Shown here in pieces: positions 19,085 through 30,695 of a stretch of 64,000 bases of DNA (positions are counted from its first letter, which is position 1; the number at the start of each line of letters is the position of its first letter). A program made the position numbers and the translations under genes. Source of the DNA: Arenimonas terrae (lineage in GTDB: Bacteria > Pseudomonadota > Gammaproteobacteria > Xanthomonadales > Xanthomonadaceae). The stretch covers positions 62,001 to 126,000 of the forward strand of contig NZ_SMDR01000001.1 in the NCBI RefSeq assembly GCF_006265115.1. Direction: 5' to 3'. The notes below the pieces were generated by a model. The model made no database searches and was not told the origin of the DNA. It worked only from the letters and a program-made list of their open reading frames with translations.

Positions 19085-19698
19085 CACTCGACGCAGCCCA
19101 TGTCCTCGTCTTCCTCAATCAGGCGCATGTCGGCCAGGTAGATCTGGAAGATCGGCATCGGCCACATCTCGTACGTGCTGCTGCCGGGCCGAACCGGACA
19201 GCTTGAGGTCCTGACCAGGCCGTCGTGGCCCATCGGCATCATGCCCATCCGGATCCGCAGCGCCTTGTCGAAAGGGTTGCGGGTGATCAGCATCATGCTG
19301 CCGTCCTCGTCCTGCTCCAGCCGGCTGTGGAGGGTGCGCGAGGGATCGCTGACTTCCTCGACCCGGCGCAGGTTCACCAGCCGGCCGTTCTCGACCTCGG
19401 CTTCGATCAGCACCTCGTGGCCCGCGTACACCGACACGCCTCCGGGCTGCACGACGGGAAGCGCGGGATAGTGCTTGTCGAAGGGCTTGCCCTTCTCGTC
19501 CCGCATCGTGATGCGGACGTCGAGCAGGCACTGGATCTTGGTGCACATCTCGGCCGTTTCCGGATCGAGCGCGTCCTTGGCGGCGGCCGGCGCCTCCGGC
19601 GTTTCCGCCGGCGGCGTGGCGTCTGCCGGGAGTTCCGACGCCGCCGACACGGTGCCGGCGGTCCACATCAACAGGGGCAGGAGCCAGGCCTTGCGCAC
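19084..19698 (-). CDS. exported protein of unknown function
   Basis: A 204-residue product beginning at GTG 19698 with a good signal peptide (RKAWLLPLLMWTAGTVSA) and AAGGA 7 bases upstream, which decides the start over the more upstream ATG. A proline/alanine-rich linker (PADATPPAETPEAPAAAKDALDPE) is followed by a domain containing CTKIQCLLDVRITMRDEKG, with two Cys that could form a disulphide, and a mostly beta remainder. It ends in an acidic tail (IEEDEDMGCVE). I do not recognise the family. It is upstream of, and coupled to, the LRR protein gene. Confidence 0.6.
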   Translation of the reverse strand: MRKAWLLPLLMWTAGTVSAASELPADATPPAETPEAPAAAKDALDPETAEMCTKIQCLLDVRITMRDEKGKPFDKHYPALPVVQPGGVSVYAGHEVLIEAEVENGRLVNLRRVEEVSDPSRTLHSRLEQDEDGSMMLITRNPFDKALRIRMGMMPMGHDGLVRTSSCPVRPGSSTYEMWPMPIFQIYLADMRLIEEDEDMGCVE

Positions 19699-23311: not shown

Positions 23312-24226
23312 ATGGACCGCCTCGACGACCTCGCCTTGTTCCTGAAAGTGCTGGACCAGGGCTCGATCACCGCCGCCGCCCGCGCCCTGGACCTCAGCCC
23401 CGCCGTGGCCAGCCAGCGCCTGGCCCGCCTGGAAAAGGAACTGGGCGTGCGCCTGCTGCACCGGACCACCCGCCAGCTGCACCCCACGCCGGAAGGCCTG
23501 GCCCTGGCCGAACAGGGCCGCGGCCTGGTCGAAGACCTCGACGCCCTGGTCAGCGGCCTGCGCCAGGCCGGCACCGGCGTCGGCGGCACCCTGCGCGTGA
23601 CCACCTCGGCCACCTTCGGCCGGCTTTACCTCTCGCCCCTGCTGCCGGAGTTCCTGGCCCTGCACCCCGCGGTCCGGGTCAGCGTGGACTTGAACGACCG
23701 CGTGGTGGACCTGGTGACGGCCGGCTTCGACCTGGCCATCCGCATCGGCGCCCTGGACGACTCGACGATGGTCGCCCGCAAGCTCGCGCCCAACCGCCGG
23801 GTGCTGGTGGCCTCGCCCGATTACCTGAAGCGCCGCGGCGCCCCGCAGGTGCCGGCCGACCTCGCCAGCCACGACTGCCTGCTGCTGACCGGCGCCCAGG
23901 GCCGCCAGGACGAATGGCGCCTGAGCGACGGCCAGGGCGGCGAAACCACCGTGCGCGTGCACGGCCGCATCGAAAGCAACTTCGGCGAACTCCTGCGCGA
24001 CGCCGCCGTGGCCGGCATGGGCATCGCCCTGCATGCGACCTGGCATGTGGCCGAAGACTTGCGCGCCGGCCGTTTGGTCGAAGTGTTGCCCGACTACCCG
24101 TTGGCCACGACGGGAGTTTGGGCGGTGATGCCGCAGCGGCGGTTGGTGCCGCCGAGGGTTAGGGCGTTTGTGGAGTTTTTGGGGGAGAGGTTTGGTGAGA
24201 ATCCAATTTGGGATAAAGGGCTGTAG
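23312..24226 (+). CDS. LysR-family transcriptional regulator
   Basis: A 304-residue LysR regulator. The N-terminal winged helix is MDRLDDLALFLKVLDQGSITAAARALDLSPAVASQRLARLEKELGVRLLHRTTR. The effector domain of about residues 90-295 starts VGGTLRVTTSATFGRLYLSPLLPEFL, close to the CrgA/AaeR-type group that often controls efflux genes. Divergent placement to the MFS transporter and the palindrome touching its ATG suggest autoregulation and control of that transporter. Codon use becomes less GC-rich near its 3' end, where the accessory island starts. Confidence 0.92.
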   Translation: MDRLDDLALFLKVLDQGSITAAARALDLSPAVASQRLARLEKELGVRLLHRTTRQLHPTPEGLALAEQGRGLVEDLDALVSGLRQAGTGVGGTLRVTTSATFGRLYLSPLLPEFLALHPAVRVSVDLNDRVVDLVTAGFDLAIRIGALDDSTMVARKLAPNRRVLVASPDYLKRRGAPQVPADLASHDCLLLTGAQGRQDEWRLSDGQGGETTVRVHGRIESNFGELLRDAAVAGMGIALHATWHVAEDLRAGRLVEVLPDYPLATTGVWAVMPQRRLVPPRVRAFVEFLGERFGENPIWDKGL

Positions 24227-24536
24227 TCAGGAGCTTGCGACGTCTGCATTCGACCTAGCGCAGGAGTTCCTGTCTTGTACGAACGTCGTGCCCGATCTCC
24301 AGCAGGCGGATGCGCTGGATGCGGTCGCGCTATCGCCGACGTCATCGTGTCCAGCTATATTTGGAAAGGTCCTGATCGCTGCGACGCACGTCAATCTCCG
24401 GCAAACTGCGGTTCCGACCGAGTTTGCCGCCCCGGTCTGTCCTCCGATTCGGTTTGTGATCCGATGAGCCTGATGAAGGGCTGCCCGCTCGATGCACCGG
24501 GCTCCCGACCCACGAACTCCTAGAGCCCACGATCCC
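24227..24536. other. noncoding left edge of the accessory island
   Basis: A 310-base stretch between the LysR gene and the ABC-ATPase gene. Base composition drops visibly in GC compared with the core genes to the left. I see no convincing ORF, no integrase, no tRNA end and no direct repeat matching the right edge of the island. An ORF running through 24168-24467 looks random. It presumably holds the promoter of the defence-like operon, but no clear -35/-10 pair stands out. Confidence 0.5.
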
Positions 24537-26528
24537 ATGGCACTGTTCCCTCTCCTCAAACATGTTCGAATCGAGAAGTACGGCCTGTATCCGGGGTTTG
24601 CGCGTGACGGCACGTTCGAGGTCACATTCCGCCCGGGCGTCACCCTGATTCTCGGTGCAAACGGGCTTGGGAAGACAACCTTGATGACACTGCTGTACCG
24701 CATGCTTGCCGGGACGCAGGAGCTCGGGCTGCCCGAAGGCGAGGTCGGCAACGCGCGTCTGGAGGCTTACGACCTTAGCGCTGTGCAGCGTAAGCAGTTT
24801 GCCAATCGGGTCAACGACGGGGCCGAGAACGCAACGTGCGAGCTGACCTTCGACCTAGGAACGACGACCTTCAGTGTCCGTCGCAAGCTCGCCAACCTTG
24901 CGCTCGATGGCTGGACGCTGGGCGGAACTGATCAGGCGCTTGATGAGCAGAAGTTGCGGGATACCGTCACCCATGCGGCCGGTCTAGGTACCTTCAGTGA
25001 CTGGCTGCTTGTGCTACGCACCTTGGTGTTTTTCTTCGAAGACCGCCGCGCCCTTGTATGGGACAGTGGTGCGCAGCGGCAGCTGCTGCGTTGTCTGCTT
25101 CTGACGCCCACCCAAGCCGCGGACTGGACCAAGCAGGAGCGCTCGATCCTTTCGTTAGACTCTCGCCTTCGTAACCTCCAGGCCGCTTTTCGCAAGGAAG
25201 AGAAGATCCAGCGCAGGCAGGCGACTCAGATCGAGGATGAGCCTGGCGTGCGCGACGCGCTCGAAGTCGCCGAGCAGCGACGCCAGCGCCTGACGGATGA
25301 ACGTGATGCGCTGACCGATCGCATCCGTGTGGCCGAGCGCAGTCGGCAAGAGGCGCGACTGTCCGCGCTTCGCGCTCAAGACGAGTATGACCGCGCACTA
25401 CGCGAGCTTGAGCGCGCGCGCCTCCTCGCGATCGAGTCGCGTATGCCAAATGCCGATCAGTCTGTGCGCTTCATCTACGCGCGGCTGATGAGCGATAACC
25501 AGTGCCTCGTCTGTACAGCGACCGACGTTGCTGAAGTCCAGGCTCGTCTTGCGGAGGCGGTTGCGCAGCGCCACTGCGTGGTCTGCGATTCGGTGCTAGC
25601 TCCTGCAGTCGACGTGATCGAACTGAACGAGGAGCGCTTGCAGGAGCTGCAGCGCCGCGTTGAGCGTAGTGCTACCCAGCTTGTTGTCTCAGCTACAAAT
25701 CGCGATGAAGCGCATGCGGCGTACTTGCGCGACAGCGAACAGCTGGCGCTGCGGGCGACGGAGATCGAGGACGCGCACCAACAAGTCGCAAACTTGGTCA
25801 ACCAGCTGCCTCCGGACCAGTCGCGGAGAAAAGAGCTGGAAGATCGCTTCCAGACTTTGAATAACATGGTCACCGAGCTTCGCGCTCAACTTGAGACCGA
25901 GCGTGCAACCTTCAATGCGTCACTCGATTCCTTCCGGGCGACGATCCATCAGTCGGCCGCCCGAATAAAGGAGCATTTCGAGGCTGTATCCAGCGACTTC
26001 CTCTATGAGGAAAGTCGTCTGAGCTGGACGCCGGATCGGCGTCTAGTCGGCCAGACCGGTGGCGACACGTATGCCGAGTACCCCGCCTTCTCAGTCGAGT
26101 TGGGCGGAAGCGACTTCGTTGGCGTGCAGCGCCGCGCGAATCCCGCCTATGTCTCGGAGAGCCAGCGTGAGTTCATCGATCTTGCGTTCAGAATGGCACT
26201 GATAGAGGTCACGTCGCCTGACCATGTCGGCACGATCTGCATCGATGCGCCCGAATCCTCGCTCGATGCCATATTTGTCGACCGTGCGGCGACAGTGTTG
26301 GCGCGATTCGCGGACGGCACATCACCAAATCGCCTCGTCGTCACATCCAATCTCGGTGCTGGACCGCTCGTGCCGGAGCTGCTGCGCAAGGCCGCACCAC
26401 CTGGCGAGCGCGCCAAGACACTAACGAATCTCTTTAAGGCTGGTCAGCCTACAAAGGCGATGGTGGATGGTGTCGTCGAGTACGAGCGCTACCTCGCCAA
26501 ACTGATGATCGCGCTGGAGGAGCCGTGA
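24537..26528 (+). CDS. SMC/Rad50-like ABC ATPase of an ABC three-component (Lamassu-like) system
   Basis: A 663-residue SMC/Rad50-type ATPase. Walker A is GANGLGKT (40-47). Two coiled-coil arms (about 205-300 and 362-480) flank a hook region with two CxxC motifs, CLVC (323-326) and CVVC (347-350). The C-terminal head has a signature-like SESQREFIDLAFR (about 540-552) and Walker B TICIDAPESSLD (566-577). Such ATPases sense DNA ends or structures and drive a linked effector in ABC-3C and Lamassu systems. ATG 24537 is chosen for the domain start. It overlaps the next gene by four bases (GTGA). Codon use is less GC-rich than in the surrounding core genes, consistent with transfer. Confidence 0.85.
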   Translation: MALFPLLKHVRIEKYGLYPGFARDGTFEVTFRPGVTLILGANGLGKTTLMTLLYRMLAGTQELGLPEGEVGNARLEAYDLSAVQRKQFANRVNDGAENATCELTFDLGTTTFSVRRKLANLALDGWTLGGTDQALDEQKLRDTVTHAAGLGTFSDWLLVLRTLVFFFEDRRALVWDSGAQRQLLRCLLLTPTQAADWTKQERSILSLDSRLRNLQAAFRKEEKIQRRQATQIEDEPGVRDALEVAEQRRQRLTDERDALTDRIRVAERSRQEARLSALRAQDEYDRALRELERARLLAIESRMPNADQSVRFIYARLMSDNQCLVCTATDVAEVQARLAEAVAQRHCVVCDSVLAPAVDVIELNEERLQELQRRVERSATQLVVSATNRDEAHAAYLRDSEQLALRATEIEDAHQQVANLVNQLPPDQSRRKELEDRFQTLNNMVTELRAQLETERATFNASLDSFRATIHQSAARIKEHFEAVSSDFLYEESRLSWTPDRRLVGQTGGDTYAEYPAFSVELGGSDFVGVQRRANPAYVSESQREFIDLAFRMALIEVTSPDHVGTICIDAPESSLDAIFVDRAATVLARFADGTSPNRLVVTSNLGAGPLVPELLRKAAPPGERAKTLTNLFKAGQPTKAMVDGVVEYERYLAKLMIALEEP

Positions 26529-27172
26529 GTACTTTTACGCCCGAGGAAACCCAGCTTGCGCAGGGCCATCGGGTGGTGGGCCTGCTCGACGCGCTAGCCC
26601 GTTCGGGCGTCGTTCCTTCGCCCGCGCGTGCACTGCACGAGCTGGCGTACCTCGCCAACGTGCTGTCCCCCGTGTTTGATCTGCAGCCCTTCGATGCCGC
26701 CTTGCTCAAGCGTAGCGCAGGACCGTACTATCCGGGCCTGCAAGCGGCGCTCGATCACCTGGTCGGTCGGGGGCTGGTGGACGCGCTAGATCTGACGTAT
26801 GAGATCGACGATACCGATGGCCGCTACCGAGTGCATGCGCGCTATCGCTTACGCCGTTTGGCGGCCGATCCCGTTCTCGATGCTCTCCGCCAGTTTCGGC
26901 GCGATGAAACGCATTTTCTCAGCGAACTTGCGGCAGCTTATGCCGGACTTTCGGACGAGGCAATGGGCGTGGCGACTCAATGGGATGCGCGGTACGCCGA
27001 CGCGGACGTCGATGTAAATGACGTGATCGATTTCGGTGAGTGGGCAAGTAGCGCGAAGAATTTTTCCCGCAATGCGGCGATGGCATTTGCGCCCGAACGC
27101 ACGCTCATGCCGGCGGAAAGGCTCTACCTGTACCTGGACTACCTTGGACAGAAGGCGCAGGCCTATGGCTAA
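26525..27172 (+). CDS. putative ABC-3C middle component
   Basis: A 215-residue protein of unrecognised family between the ATPase and the nuclease-like protein, overlapping both frames. It starts at GTG 26525 inside the ATPase stop region with GGAGG just upstream. The N-terminal half looks helical with winged-helix character (VVGLLDALARSGVVPSPARALHELAYLANVLSP..PYYPGLQAALDHLVGRGLVDA). The C-terminal half is helical (ADPVLDALRQFRRDETHFLSELAAAYAGL) and ends in an amphipathic helix. Position, size and overlap match the small middle component of ABC three-component systems, but the assignment rests on context. Confidence 0.6.
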   Translation: MSTFTPEETQLAQGHRVVGLLDALARSGVVPSPARALHELAYLANVLSPVFDLQPFDAALLKRSAGPYYPGLQAALDHLVGRGLVDALDLTYEIDDTDGRYRVHARYRLRRLAADPVLDALRQFRRDETHFLSELAAAYAGLSDEAMGVATQWDARYADADVDVNDVIDFGEWASSAKNFSRNAAMAFAPERTLMPAERLYLYLDYLGQKAQAYG

Positions 27173-28217
27173 CCTACTGGGGGCGTGGAGCGGTGAGGAG
27201 GCGGCGCTGGCGGCAGCGGAGGTCACGGGACGCGGCGGCGACGCGGACCTATCGGATGAGCAGCGCTTTCCGCGCGAGGTCGCGCAGCTCCTCGCGCGCC
27301 GTGAACGCCGTGATGACGCTGAGTTCGATCAGCCGGCTGCATTCGTACTTACGCCGGCGTCCGTGTTCGAGTCGCTTGATGCAGCATGGACTCGGAATCG
27401 GTTGCTCCGGACTGGCAACCGTCGGGTTACTGGTCAGATTCACGCGGTCTCGTCTACGCTGAGCGGATCAAGTTTCGGTGTGAACGATGGAGACGACGCG
27501 CTGTTCAAGGCGCTCGAAGTTCACGGATTGGCCGAGCTACCGACGATCATTTACACGCCAAAGCGTGGGTACTCTACGATCAGCGTATATGCACATGGCA
27601 TCGCCAACGACGATGACTGCGAGACGTATGACATCGATGATGAGATGCCGAGCCGCGAGGCCATTATCGAAGCGATCGATCACGCCTATGAGCAGGAACT
27701 CATAACGCCTGACCAGATGAGAAAGGGTTCGCTCTGGGAGGATGCTTCGAAGTTCTGGGCTGTCAATGAGGCCGAGTTCCGTGTTCAGGATATCGTTCGC
27801 TTCGTTCTCCTTGGGCGATTCCTACGATGCCAAGTTCGCCCCGAGCAGCCCGGCAAAGAAGGACGAACCGATCTTGAAATCGTTAGTGAGCGCGGCATGG
27901 CTGCCGGACACGTCATTCATCACGCGGTATTGGAGATGAAAGTTCTTCGTGAGAGGGGCTCCACAGGTCGCAAGTATCCTGATCAGTTCATCCACGATCA
28001 CGTTCGCGATGGGCTCGAGCAGGCCAACGCGTATGGGCTCAAGCGCAACATGCGTGAGAAGATCCTTTGCTGCTTCGACATGCGCGCGACTGATCTCGGG
28101 AACGACGCTGTCTTCGCTCATGTCGTCGATGACGCGGTGCGGCTCAATGTCGTGCTGAGTCGGTGGTTCCTCTACAACAGCTCGGATGCCTACCGCGCAG
28201 TGCTTGCCGCGGTTTAG
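27165..28217 (+). CDS. PD-(D/E)XK nuclease-like effector
   Basis: A 350-residue protein overlapping the middle-component gene by eight bases. Its C-terminal third has a PD-(D/E)XK pattern: acidic helix NEAEF (201-205), D236 in GRTDLEIV, E257-x-K259 in AVLEMKVLR, then Q286-x3-Y290 in EQANAYG, followed by a beta strand KILCCFDMR. This is the layout of restriction-endonuclease-fold effectors. The N-terminal two thirds (to about 190) is not recognised and may link to the ATPase complex. As the last gene of the operon it is the probable DNA-cutting effector. Its TAG lies in the four-base overlap with the convergent methyltransferase stop. Confidence 0.7.
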   Translation: MANLLGAWSGEEAALAAAEVTGRGGDADLSDEQRFPREVAQLLARRERRDDAEFDQPAAFVLTPASVFESLDAAWTRNRLLRTGNRRVTGQIHAVSSTLSGSSFGVNDGDDALFKALEVHGLAELPTIIYTPKRGYSTISVYAHGIANDDDCETYDIDDEMPSREAIIEAIDHAYEQELITPDQMRKGSLWEDASKFWAVNEAEFRVQDIVRFVLLGRFLRCQVRPEQPGKEGRTDLEIVSERGMAAGHVIHHAVLEMKVLRERGSTGRKYPDQFIHDHVRDGLEQANAYGLKRNMREKILCCFDMRATDLGNDAVFAHVVDDAVRLNVVLSRWFLYNSSDAYRAVLAAV

Positions 28218-29551
28218 CGACGAGTCATCACCACGAGGTCTTCGCTCAAGCCTGGTCGGCCGCTCTGCTGCGGAGAAACGCGCATTGAACGAAACGGGGT
28301 TGTATATTCGACGCCGAAGTCGGCAAGGGGTGCGAGTTCTTCGAGAATACGCGCAACCTGTACGTGCACTTGTGCGTACTGACTATCGCCTACGACGAAC
28401 CACGCCTGTCCACCTTGCGGCAGTATGCGTGCGGAAGCGCGCAGAAGCGTCAGAAGGTCGGCGAAATAACCACCGACCATGGCCGGCAAGCGATGGTCCC
28501 ACAGCTGCGACGCACTGCGGTGTAGTGCTTTCATTGTCCGGTTAAGTGTGGGCGTCGATGGGGCGGTGGCGAAGTCGCGTGAGACCTGCACATGGGAGGT
28601 CAGCGTGGACTGTCGGAGCGCTCGATTGTCCTGCGCTGAGCCAAGGTAGCCGAGCATCCACAACTCCAGGTTGTATACGTCGGTGTAATCGAAGGAATTG
28701 GGATAGGGCGGTGAGCAGACGATAAGGTCGACCGGGTCGAGTGTCTCAAACACGGCGCGACTGTCGCCACAGAGGACTGTCGCCTCGCGGATGGGGCGAT
28801 CGGCGAACATGTCGATCTCACCGATCGCGTTCGCTGCGGCATCGGAGAACGCAGCTAGCACGATGCGCGGATCGACGGGCCGATTCTCCCAGTTGGCCCG
28901 ATATCGGCGTCCCTTTCCGCTGACCGTTGCGTTGCTGAAGCTAGTTATCAACCCACCCAAGATGACACGGAAAAGGCGCGCGATGCTCGCGTCCTCCAAT
29001 TGGGCGATGGCTGAGCGGAGACGCAGAACTTCCAGCGCGACCTCATGATCGAACAGCCAGCGTCCCTTGACACCGGGCTCGATGAAGGTGGCGGGCAGGG
29101 CATCGATCATCGTGCCGGCCCGGCTGCGCGAGCGTCGTGCCACGTCGCAGACGTGTGTCAGTGCAGAAATGAGAGCAGGCACATGGTAGGCAGTGACTTT
29201 GGCTTGGATCAGGTCGGCTAGGAACGGATTAACTTCAATCGTCGATGGTGTCACCCCTAGGAACTGTGCCGTAAGGGCGCTAGTTCCTGAACCTCCAAAG
29301 GGATCGGCCAAGCTCCGGACAGGGCGGGGTGACTCCCGAACGGCGCGAGCAATAAGCTCCGGATCGAACGCTTCCTTGAAGCGATGCCAGCGCTGGAAGG
29401 GCAGGTCGCTGGCGTTGGTCGACGCCATCACCGAGGAGCGCTTTCCCACCCAGTGCTCGAAAGATGCGCCCCCAGCAGGGCTCACGCGGCCGCGCAGGGG
29501 GACATGGCGAAAGCCGGTGGGCGACGAGACTGACTGCGGTCTTGTGGGCAT
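28214..29551 (-). CDS. DNA methyltransferase with SPPY motif (N4-cytosine or N6-adenine type)
   Basis: A 445-residue site-specific DNA methylase. The SAM-binding motif I is DPFGGSGT (83-90) and the catalytic motif IV is CSPPYPNSFDYTD (279-291). SPPY is typical of m4C methylases but also occurs in some m6A enzymes. About 190 residues separate them and may hold a recognition domain; a further segment FVVGDSQ (385-391) follows. ATG 29551 is chosen because GGAG lies 8 bases upstream and the earlier in-frame codons are not conserved-looking. The gene is convergent with the nuclease-like gene and their stops overlap by four bases. With that nuclease it could act as a modification partner. Codon use is island-like. 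Confidence 0.85.
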   Translation of the reverse strand: MPTRPQSVSSPTGFRHVPLRGRVSPAGGASFEHWVGKRSSVMASTNASDLPFQRWHRFKEAFDPELIARAVRESPRPVRSLADPFGGSGTSALTAQFLGVTPSTIEVNPFLADLIQAKVTAYHVPALISALTHVCDVARRSRSRAGTMIDALPATFIEPGVKGRWLFDHEVALEVLRLRSAIAQLEDASIARLFRVILGGLITSFSNATVSGKGRRYRANWENRPVDPRIVLAAFSDAAANAIGEIDMFADRPIREATVLCGDSRAVFETLDPVDLIVCSPPYPNSFDYTDVYNLELWMLGYLGSAQDNRALRQSTLTSHVQVSRDFATAPSTPTLNRTMKALHRSASQLWDHRLPAMVGGYFADLLTLLRASARILPQGGQAWFVVGDSQYAQVHVQVARILEELAPLADFGVEYTTPFRSMRVSPQQSGRPGLSEDLVVMTRR

Positions 29552-29924
29552 GGCGACGCTCCGGACGTCGCGCCATCGTACACGATTGCTTTCGTGCCTA
29601 TCGCACCGAATCGGCAAGAGTTGATCCGGGCTTCCAAGCATGCGGTAGGCCATGGGGGACAAGGCTAGGCATGTCTGGCGTTTTCAGGATTGCACTCGAG
29701 CGGGGCGACATATACCTAGGGGAAGGCGTCATCCGTGGCCTCGCTCGGTACTCGGGTCGGGTTGTGGGCTCGTTCGCGCAATGGGACGGTCGCGACCGGT
29801 TGTGACCAGCTGGTTCACCACGGGGGCTCGTTGGCGGATTTCATGGAACACATCGGGCCGCTGCCGCAGGTCGAGGCCGAGTGGTACGCCTATCTGCAGG
29901 CGATGGTCGGACCGTCCGGCCGCG
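29552..29924. other. right edge of the accessory island, no firm gene
   Basis: A 373-base gap between the methyltransferase start and the end of the next core gene. GC rises to core level from about 29830. A plus-strand frame (29735-29938, 67 codons) ends in a core-like segment (LADFMEHIGPLPQVEAEWYAYLQAMVG) that looks like the C-terminal end of a disrupted gene, but I cannot identify the parent. No integrase or repeat marking an attachment site is visible. Confidence 0.4.
29671..29805 (+). CDS. possible 44-residue small ORF
   Basis: ATG 29671 opens a 44-codon frame (MSGVFRIALERGDIYLGEG... ending GRDRL) with AAGG about 6 bases upstream. The composition looks protein-like, with an alternating hydrophobic pattern and no membrane helix. 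There is no recognised homologue and no operon partner. It could be a fragment left by the insertion that brought in the methyltransferase, or chance. Confidence 0.2.
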   Translation: MSGVFRIALERGDIYLGEGVIRGLARYSGRVVGSFAQWDGRDRL

Positions 29925-30695
29925 TCACAACGTTATGACTTCCGCATCGTCCTCGGGCGGCGGCGGTGTTTCGCCCTCCGCTTCCACCGGCTTGCCGCCG
30001 ACGTCGAGCGTATAGGTGAACTGCTGGTCGAAACGGCTGCGAGCGGCCCCTGCGGCGGTTTGCCGTGCCTCCACGACCAGGCGGTGCGTGCCCTTCGACA
30101 GCGGCGGCAGCAGCAGCCAGAGCCCGTCGGTGGACGCCGGGGCGTACAGGCCCGGCGGCACGTCGTCGTGGCCGGCGTCGGCGTAGGCGTCGAAGCAGTC
30201 GCGCGAGGCGCTGCGGACCGGGGCCAGCAGCGCGCCGTCGAGTTCCACGCGGTAAGTCAGCGGGCGCGAAGCCACTTCGCCGGCCGCGGTGCGCAGGGTC
30301 GCGCAGTCGCGGCGGCGTCCGGGCACCGAGTACTCCAGCGCGACGTGCACCGGCAGGAACAGGTGGCGGCCTTCGGGGACCGTGCAGCGGCGGTTGGCGG
30401 TGCCGGTGCCCGGTGTGCCGGCCAGGAACCACACGGTGCCGGTCTGGCCGACATGGCACTGCGCGCCGGTCGGGTCCTGCGTGGGGCGCATGCCGTCGCG
30501 CTGGCGATAGGCCCAGCGCCACCAGGCTTCCGCCAGTTCGGGATAGCCGCGGCCTTCGACCTTGGCGTCCAGCGGCAGCGCGGCGAACGTGGTGTCTGGC
30601 GTTGCCGATGTCCCCGCAGGTGCCGCAGGCGCGGCGACCGTCGCGGCGAGGGCCGCCGCCAGCATCGCCGCCGCGAAGGGCAGGGACGCGCTCAT
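29925..30695 (-). CDS. exported protein of unknown function
   Basis: A 256-residue protein with a signal peptide (MSASLPFAAAMLAAALAATVAAPAAPA). The mature part starts at a Trp-rich motif (YPELAEAWWRWAYRQRDGM). It continues through a cysteine-containing beta-rich domain (CHVGQTGTVWFLAGT, RRCTVPEGRHLFLPVHVALEYSVPG, DCFDAYADAGHDDVPPGLY, LLLPPLSKGTHRLVVEARQ) that resembles an immunoglobulin-like fold. The tail is acidic and Pro-rich. The start overlaps the upstream TPR/DUF4034-like gene by ATGA, so the two are coexpressed. I do not recognise a function. Confidence 0.7.
   Translation of the reverse strand: MSASLPFAAAMLAAALAATVAAPAAPAGTSATPDTTFAALPLDAKVEGRGYPELAEAWWRWAYRQRDGMRPTQDPTGAQCHVGQTGTVWFLAGTPGTGTANRRCTVPEGRHLFLPVHVALEYSVPGRRRDCATLRTAAGEVASRPLTYRVELDGALLAPVRSASRDCFDAYADAGHDDVPPGLYAPASTDGLWLLLPPLSKGTHRLVVEARQTAAGAARSRFDQQFTYTLDVGGKPVEAEGETPPPPEDDAEVITL

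Follow-up and report, generated by a model that had tools for sequence, protein, structure and literature searches.

A four-gene cassette of SMC/Rad50-like ATPase, middle protein, nuclease and DNA methylase in Arenimonas terrae looks like an ATP-driven form of restriction-modification

Type I and Type III restriction-modification systems and DISARM combine a methylase, as the self mark, with an ATP-dependent machine, and classical Type II enzymes work without ATP. Wadjet (JetABCD) directs an SMC-type ATPase and a nuclease against foreign DNA; it has no methylase, carries kleisin/KITE subunits and uses a different nuclease. BREX and the DUF499 BREX-related systems also join a methylase self mark to an ATP-dependent machine, according to the available part of PMC12839542. 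Lamassu systems are presumed to kill the cell under infection (available part of PMC10586767). Among the literature consulted, the closest published idea is that of the CxC-ABC ATPase/DndE (PbeABCD-type) systems: the available part of PMC10853773 describes how, in one neighbourhood, a nuclease and DNA methylases accompany an ABC ATPase whose coiled coil has hook-like cysteines, the methylases being cytosine enzymes that include permuted cytosine-N4 ones. Here we analysed a stretch of 64,000 nucleotides of Arenimonas terrae (contig NZ_SMDR01000001.1), referred to in full length as the window. It holds a four-gene cassette that resembles Lamassu/ABC three-component (ABC-3C) systems in plan (ATPase, middle protein, effector), includes a dedicated DNA methyltransferase (methylase) and appears to be a new type of restriction-modification powered by ATP. 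We consider it probable that the cassette is an ATP-dependent, restriction-modification-like defence system. The open-licence literature yielded no description of the four-gene set, and an earlier one may exist.

The cassette consists of the following genes:

24537..26528, plus strand: SMC/Rad50-like ABC ATPase gene, 663 aa, ATG start
26525..27172, plus strand: middle protein gene, 215 aa, GTG start, overlapping the ATPase gene by 4 bases
27165..28217, plus strand: PD-(D/E)XK nuclease gene, 350 aa, ATG start, overlapping the middle protein gene by 8 bases
28214..29551, minus strand: DNA methyltransferase gene, 445 aa, tail to tail with the nuclease gene, the stops sharing 4 bases

An original prediction, made from the letters of the window alone, had described three overlapping plus-strand frames of 663, 215 and 350 residues (the trio), a convergent methylase whose stop overlaps that of the nuclease and a GC content below that of the flanks. 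All of this was confirmed. The GC content of the four genes was 0.59–0.62 (window: ~0.70), and the GC content at third codon positions was 0.66–0.70, compared with 0.90 in the upstream gene. The longest open reading frames would extend the ATPase upstream to 24492 and the methylase to 29662; alignments favour the starts at 24537 and 29551.

Related loci were gathered by the ATPase alone. Two plasmid loci (tblastn) and 44 genome contigs (a pattern-based collection using ATPase patterns, in which several loci come from metagenome assemblies) gave 47 loci together with the window. Because of these 46 relatives, a chance arrangement can be excluded. All 47 loci gave a profile match for the middle protein, 45 for the methylase and 43 for the nuclease. 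Locus L020 is cut off where its contig ends; the edge of another contig of the same genome holds genes for methylase, nuclease and middle protein. The methylase was present in 46 of the 47 ATPase loci (43 of 44 when counting genome contigs only), and the four-gene set was found across several phyla. Homologous trios therefore stand next to a methylase almost everywhere, as the original prediction would have it. The only exception was L046 (8521-9471), in which the ATPase lacks its N-terminal half; its genome had no methylase match at E ≤ 1e-5. L046 appears to be a decayed copy, with middle protein and nuclease genes still open and 79% identity to L044 where aligned. No further family recurred as a neighbour in more than 4 of the 47 loci.

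As the ATPase patterns had been derived from methylase-bearing rows, a separate profile test over genomes was made. The ATPase profile found 5 of 398 genomes of the phylum at E ≤ 1e-20. The methylase profile, searched separately, picked the same five at E ≤ 2.1e-165, the next match being only 5.6e-50. If the two were independent in their occurrence, the odds of identical five-genome sets would be 1 in 8e10, or 1 in 1e9 if the genome of the window is set aside. Six lower methylase matches in the phylum showed no trio gene in the stretch fetched around each. The family search (297 genomes) gave three close methylases, all with the trio. As the window's genome is in both the family and the phylum set, seven of seven distinct close methylases have the trio, and a close methylase with a separate partner was not found in these genomes (for one viral exception, L148, see below). 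Weaker methylase matches in the family search were seen in 16 genomes, one of which was inspected (G425; L051, a 3.4-kb contig). Plasmid records contained 32 methylase matches; the best two were L002 and L003, each with the trio, and the others listed had <30% identity, except for a Dyella fragment at 60% that spans 20% of the query. Phage records gave one match (23%). Hence, the linkage is near-obligate (46 of 47 loci and identical five-genome sets), a hitch-hiking solitary methylase is rejected, and the methylase belongs to the cassette.

The linkage outlasts gene order, since convergent, divergent and same-strand arrangements all occur. The majority of the 45 loci with a methylase had it convergent with the nuclease (33, two of them with a gap of >500 bases). 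It was convergent beyond a replaced third gene in three loci, on the same strand after the nuclease in three, on the same strand before an ATPase in three and divergent from the ATPase in the last three.

The 40 aligned ATPases formed a single clade (100/100) against 23 LmuB-model controls in a careful tree, which omitted three long-branched controls and still carried a warning of long branches coming together at the junction of the system clade and the controls. A quick tree with all 26 controls recovered the same clade (support 99). The clade splits into two subclades of 20 (97/91). In a set of 34 loci, the distances of the trio members correlated with r 0.87–0.90 and those between methylase and trio with r 0.69–0.76 (0 of 2000 permutations). 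This set was derived from one of 37 loci, which leaves out L002, L003, L013, L020, L021, L026, L039 and L046 as well as L035 and L037 (no nuclease match), by further removing L011, L015 and L017 (methylase of another family). The alignments comprised 40 ATPases, 44 middle proteins, 38 nucleases and 39 methylases. For L003, L004, L024, L037 and L041, which are not in the ATPase tree, the trio clade marked in the methylase tree was assigned by resemblance. Judged by these sequences, methylase and trio diversify together, although the methylase is at times exchanged or replaced and two trios can have one methylase in common.

The Walker A/B motifs and the coiled coil noted earlier in the 663-residue protein were verified. 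Its Walker A motif is GANGLGKT (Walker A kept in 40 of 40 aligned ATPases), followed by a signature-like motif (VSESQ) and the Walker-B/D-loop region (DAPESSLD), and the coiled coil holds CxxC-x20-CxxC at its middle. The protein matched Pfam AAA_23 (E 1.6e-9). CxxC-x19/20-CxxC was found in 39 of 40 aligned ATPases. A CxC metal hook at the coiled-coil apex was considered and rejected, as a CxC pattern anywhere in residues 200–450 occurred in only 3 of 40. The PADLOC LmuB model PDLC03859 matched 40 of 40 relatives at E ≤ 0.001 (best E 1.3e-24); it is a broad, unspecific model: at E ≤ 1e-8 it also hit 201 of the 398 genomes, and 11 of the 14 control genomes contained a match. In that genome search, which scored three candidates in each genome listed, the ATPase of the window itself was missed at E ≤ 1e-8.

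The middle protein, a plus-strand frame that had at first gone unrecognised, is now assigned a predicted structure: its N-terminal part gave winged-helix fold matches and its C-terminal part is helical. It is predicted to be a DNA-binding or adaptor subunit. A role as DndE was unsupported, there being no DndE/PbeD among the three PADLOC families listed for 44 members.

The nuclease has an N-terminal alpha/beta domain (~27–159) and a catalytic half (~160–344) with the motif GR-x-D236, E257-x-K259 and Q286-xxx-Y290. The residues E204, G233, D236, E257, K259, Q286 and Y290 were invariant in 38 of 38 aligned nucleases, which bears out the PD-(D/E)XK pattern seen before. Against solved structures, which the structural comparison covered, the C-terminal half matched restriction-endonuclease-like folds, including BamHI-like ones, and not a fold unrelated to nucleases. 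Foldseek with the nuclease gave no match at E ≤ 0.001 (best: MUS81, 6.2e-3), and searches of PDB sequences with the middle protein and nuclease profiles gave no significant match. No target-recognition domain was recognised in the three trio proteins, and no ABC-3C domain was among the families listed for the 38 nuclease-set members. The nuclease search of 274 genomes of the class returned the window's own copy only, and a scan of viral contigs with the nuclease alone returned no match.

In the methylase, motif I (DPFGGSGT) precedes motif IV (SPPYPN), a permuted order, and it is classed as a putative N4-cytosine or N6-adenine methylase. It matched PADLOC MTase_II (E 1.4e-36) and scored slightly above the cut-off of the Pfam model N6_N4_Mtase. 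SPPY was present in 39 of 39 aligned methylases. Profile positions 49–104 matched a modification methylase in PDB (2zie, E 4.4e-11).

Compared with known systems, the three-part plan is shared with Lamassu/ABC-3C: an SMC/Rad50-like ATPase, a small middle protein and an effector nuclease in one operon, with a changeable effector arm. The differences are the dedicated methylase, the ATPase gene in first place (last in the LmuB-model controls inspected), the separate ATPase clade and its cysteines (a looser CxxC-CxxC pattern was found in 3 of 26 controls). Moreover, hhalign gave 0.1% for the middle protein against 11 control LmuC candidates and 0.1% for the nuclease against 10 control LmuA candidates, all stemming from a single LmuB model, and PADLOC LmuC matched one of 44 middle proteins at E 0.03. 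The ABC-3C part of the original reading is retained, Lamassu being a candidate assignment, and 'ABC-3C-like' appears from these comparisons to be the apt label. With the CxC-ABC/DndE systems, as far as the available part of their description goes, the cassette shares the elements named at the outset and differs in two CxxC motifs instead of CxC, in a predicted winged helix instead of the two ribbon-helix-helix domains of DndE and in a lone PD-(D/E)XK nuclease instead of an HKD nuclease fused to a superfamily 2 (SF2) helicase.

A single-chain methylase convergent with a PD-(D/E)XK nuclease having BamHI-like fold matches is reminiscent of Type II restriction-modification. Methylase and nuclease are linked as in restriction-modification (methylase in 46 of 47 loci; nuclease in 43 of 47, plus L020 on another contig), and the nuclease has fold matches of the restriction-endonuclease type and an intact motif, four variant loci lying outside the 38 aligned. 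In contrast to Type II, an ATPase and a predicted winged-helix protein belong to the restriction arm, the ATPase being present in 47 of 47 loci (by selection) and in seven of seven close methylase-profile cases. In contrast to Type I/III, BREX and DISARM, the candidate motor is an SMC/Rad50-type ABC ATPase rather than a helicase of SF2 or an AAA+ ATPase.

The genes and their motifs, the predicted folds, the co-diversification and a linkage that is near-obligate were observed; the self-marking, the scanning, the cleavage of unmarked DNA and the anti-phage or anti-plasmid function we infer. The methyltransferase would place its mark on a sequence motif in the DNA of the host. The ABC ATPase, probably a dimer whose coiled coil has a site of four cysteines (probably for zinc) halfway along, would scan or loop DNA together with the winged-helix middle protein. 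When unmarked DNA is met, the ATPase complex would license the PD-(D/E)XK nuclease to cut. The original suggestion that the methylase supplies self/non-self discrimination in a restriction-modification version of ABC-3C gains support as an interpretation from the linkage at 46 of 47 loci, the discrimination itself being presumed. A more specific version – a distinct class of ATP-dependent restriction-modification where the helicase motor has given way to an SMC/Rad50-like ATPase and the trio senses a missing methyl mark rather than its own motif – is a tentative proposal to which we give somewhat less than even weight.

Several observations weigh against the restriction-modification reading, in particular if every trio reads its own motif. 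L002, L013 and L026 each combine a complete clade I trio and a complete clade II trio with a single methylase. The clade II trios of L043 and L047 are paired with clade I methylases. Both situations are awkward for a trio with its own motif. L011, L015, L017 and L039 have a methylase from a different family, and keeping three such methylases in the analysis (37 loci) lowers the methylase correlations to 0.33–0.49. Four loci lack a recognisable catalytic nuclease and have a KAP-type NTPase gene instead:

L003:10018-15075, L032:11061-15431, L035 and L037: KAP-variant loci, methylase retained

The pooled third proteins of these loci resemble the N-terminal part of the nuclease only (hhalign 95.6%), and the nuclease motif residues were not seen by eye. 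The KAP-type NTPase is a four-member neighbour cluster, of which L003 and L032 were scanned. Viral contigs gave eight methylase matches, four of them close (42–48% identity; L145 to L148), and the full canonical trio was found in one of these four only. This was L146, which is the same contig as L142; the contig of L145 stops within the nuclease gene, and L147 has a divergent trio whose middle protein was missed by the profile. In L148 (7992-13428), the close methylase is convergent with a different three-gene partner. One of its products, of 849 aa, has a KaiC-like ATPase domain, the other two are unknown proteins, and the set may form a further restriction arm that goes with this methylase family. 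Of the four ATPase matches in viral contigs, L141 and L142 have all four genes, L143 ends in the ATPase and L144 is weak. Finally, the genome counts are small (5 of 398), and with the top two candidates (ATPase) or up to four (methylase) scored per listed genome, lower-ranked copies could have escaped.

Some of these variants can be read in the other direction. A methylase of another family in four loci means that an enzyme of such activity is retained despite sequence replacement, and the KAP variants mean that the effector arm is changeable while the methylase stays. Exchange and sharing of methylases suggest that either the methylases mark the same motif or the trio senses the missing mark. 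Sensing of an absent mark would explain methylases exchanged between clades, replaced or common to two trios, and it would also explain the swap of the nuclease for a KAP-NTPase arm.

The main rival is an abortive or addiction system, in which methylation restrains a trio that acts as a suicide effector. Loss or inhibition of the methylase, or a build-up of replicating DNA that lacks methylation, would make the trio kill the cell rather than selectively cut the invader. The fate ascribed to cells infected in the presence of Lamassu (available part of PMC10586767) fits this, near-obligate linkage suits an antidote, and the sole methylase-free locus, L046, is also the one without the ATPase N-terminal half. 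Restriction-modification systems display the same linkage, however, and we regard an abortive system as unlikely.

Less likely again, and in our view improbable, is a methylase that takes part in the complex as one of its working subunits, in the manner of Type I or ISP enzymes, and gives sequence recognition for both modification and cleavage. The trio proteins without a recognised target-recognition domain and the correlated distances of methylase and trio would agree with such a subunit. The correlation is lower than that within the trio, though, the methylase has moved between trio clades or given way to one of another family, and its strand is opposite to that of the nearest trio gene in 39 of 45 loci.

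A housekeeping DNA-repair complex of the SbcCD/Rad50 type, with methylation as a strand or self mark, would account for Rad50 and SbcC being among the weak matches of the ATPase profile in PDB. It is very improbable, as the system is rare and accessory (5 of 398 genomes; a low-GC insert), occurs in plasmid records and viral contigs and is absent from the 16 other genomes of the genus listed. The least credible alternative, an ordinary Lamassu/ABC-3C system beside a hitch-hiking methylase, has the match of the broad LmuB models to all 40 aligned ATPases in its favour and is contradicted by the co-occurrence in loci and genomes and by 2–5 kb stretches around 30 LmuB-model matches, in which no methylase of the family was found.

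The restriction-modification-like cassette lies in an insert:

24227..29924, no strand: low-GC accessory insert between a LysR-like gene and the next minus-strand gene

The LysR-like gene (named by eye) ends at 24226 and the minus-strand gene at 29925. The host genome has 3.31 Mb in seven contigs. No flanking repeats or mobile-element ends were found around the insert, and scans for promoters and terminators at the locus gave no signal exceeding shuffled sequences. In an empty-site comparison with other genomes of the genus, the right flank gave only short, chance-like matches. The sole tRNA gene found in the window, a tRNA-Gly (19568-19656), lies ~4.9 kb to the left of the ATPase start.

In other loci, proteins that look by eye like TniQ/TniB/TniA/TnsA types flank both plasmid copies (L002:12346-17965 and L003:2356-7247), which suggests that these copies are transposon-borne defence cargo. 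Helix-turn-helix-like genes stand beside the methylase in L002, L028, L043 and L044; two were scanned, and the Pfam helix-turn-helix matches were below the cut-off. Proteins of ~1000 aa from one family near the system in L010, L020 and L039 look by eye like Type I restriction subunits. L035 is titled Bacillus sp. 2B10, yet it groups closely with a Sphingomonas copy, possibly due to contamination or mislabelling.

How SMC-type defence complexes distinguish foreign from self DNA is an unsettled question. An SMC-like machine with its own methylase offers a genetically testable answer, namely self-marking. Loci whose methylases are exchanged or common to two trios offer a natural test of what the restriction arm reads, a sequence or just the lack of a mark. 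The family would connect two large defence worlds, restriction-modification and ABC-3C/Lamassu.

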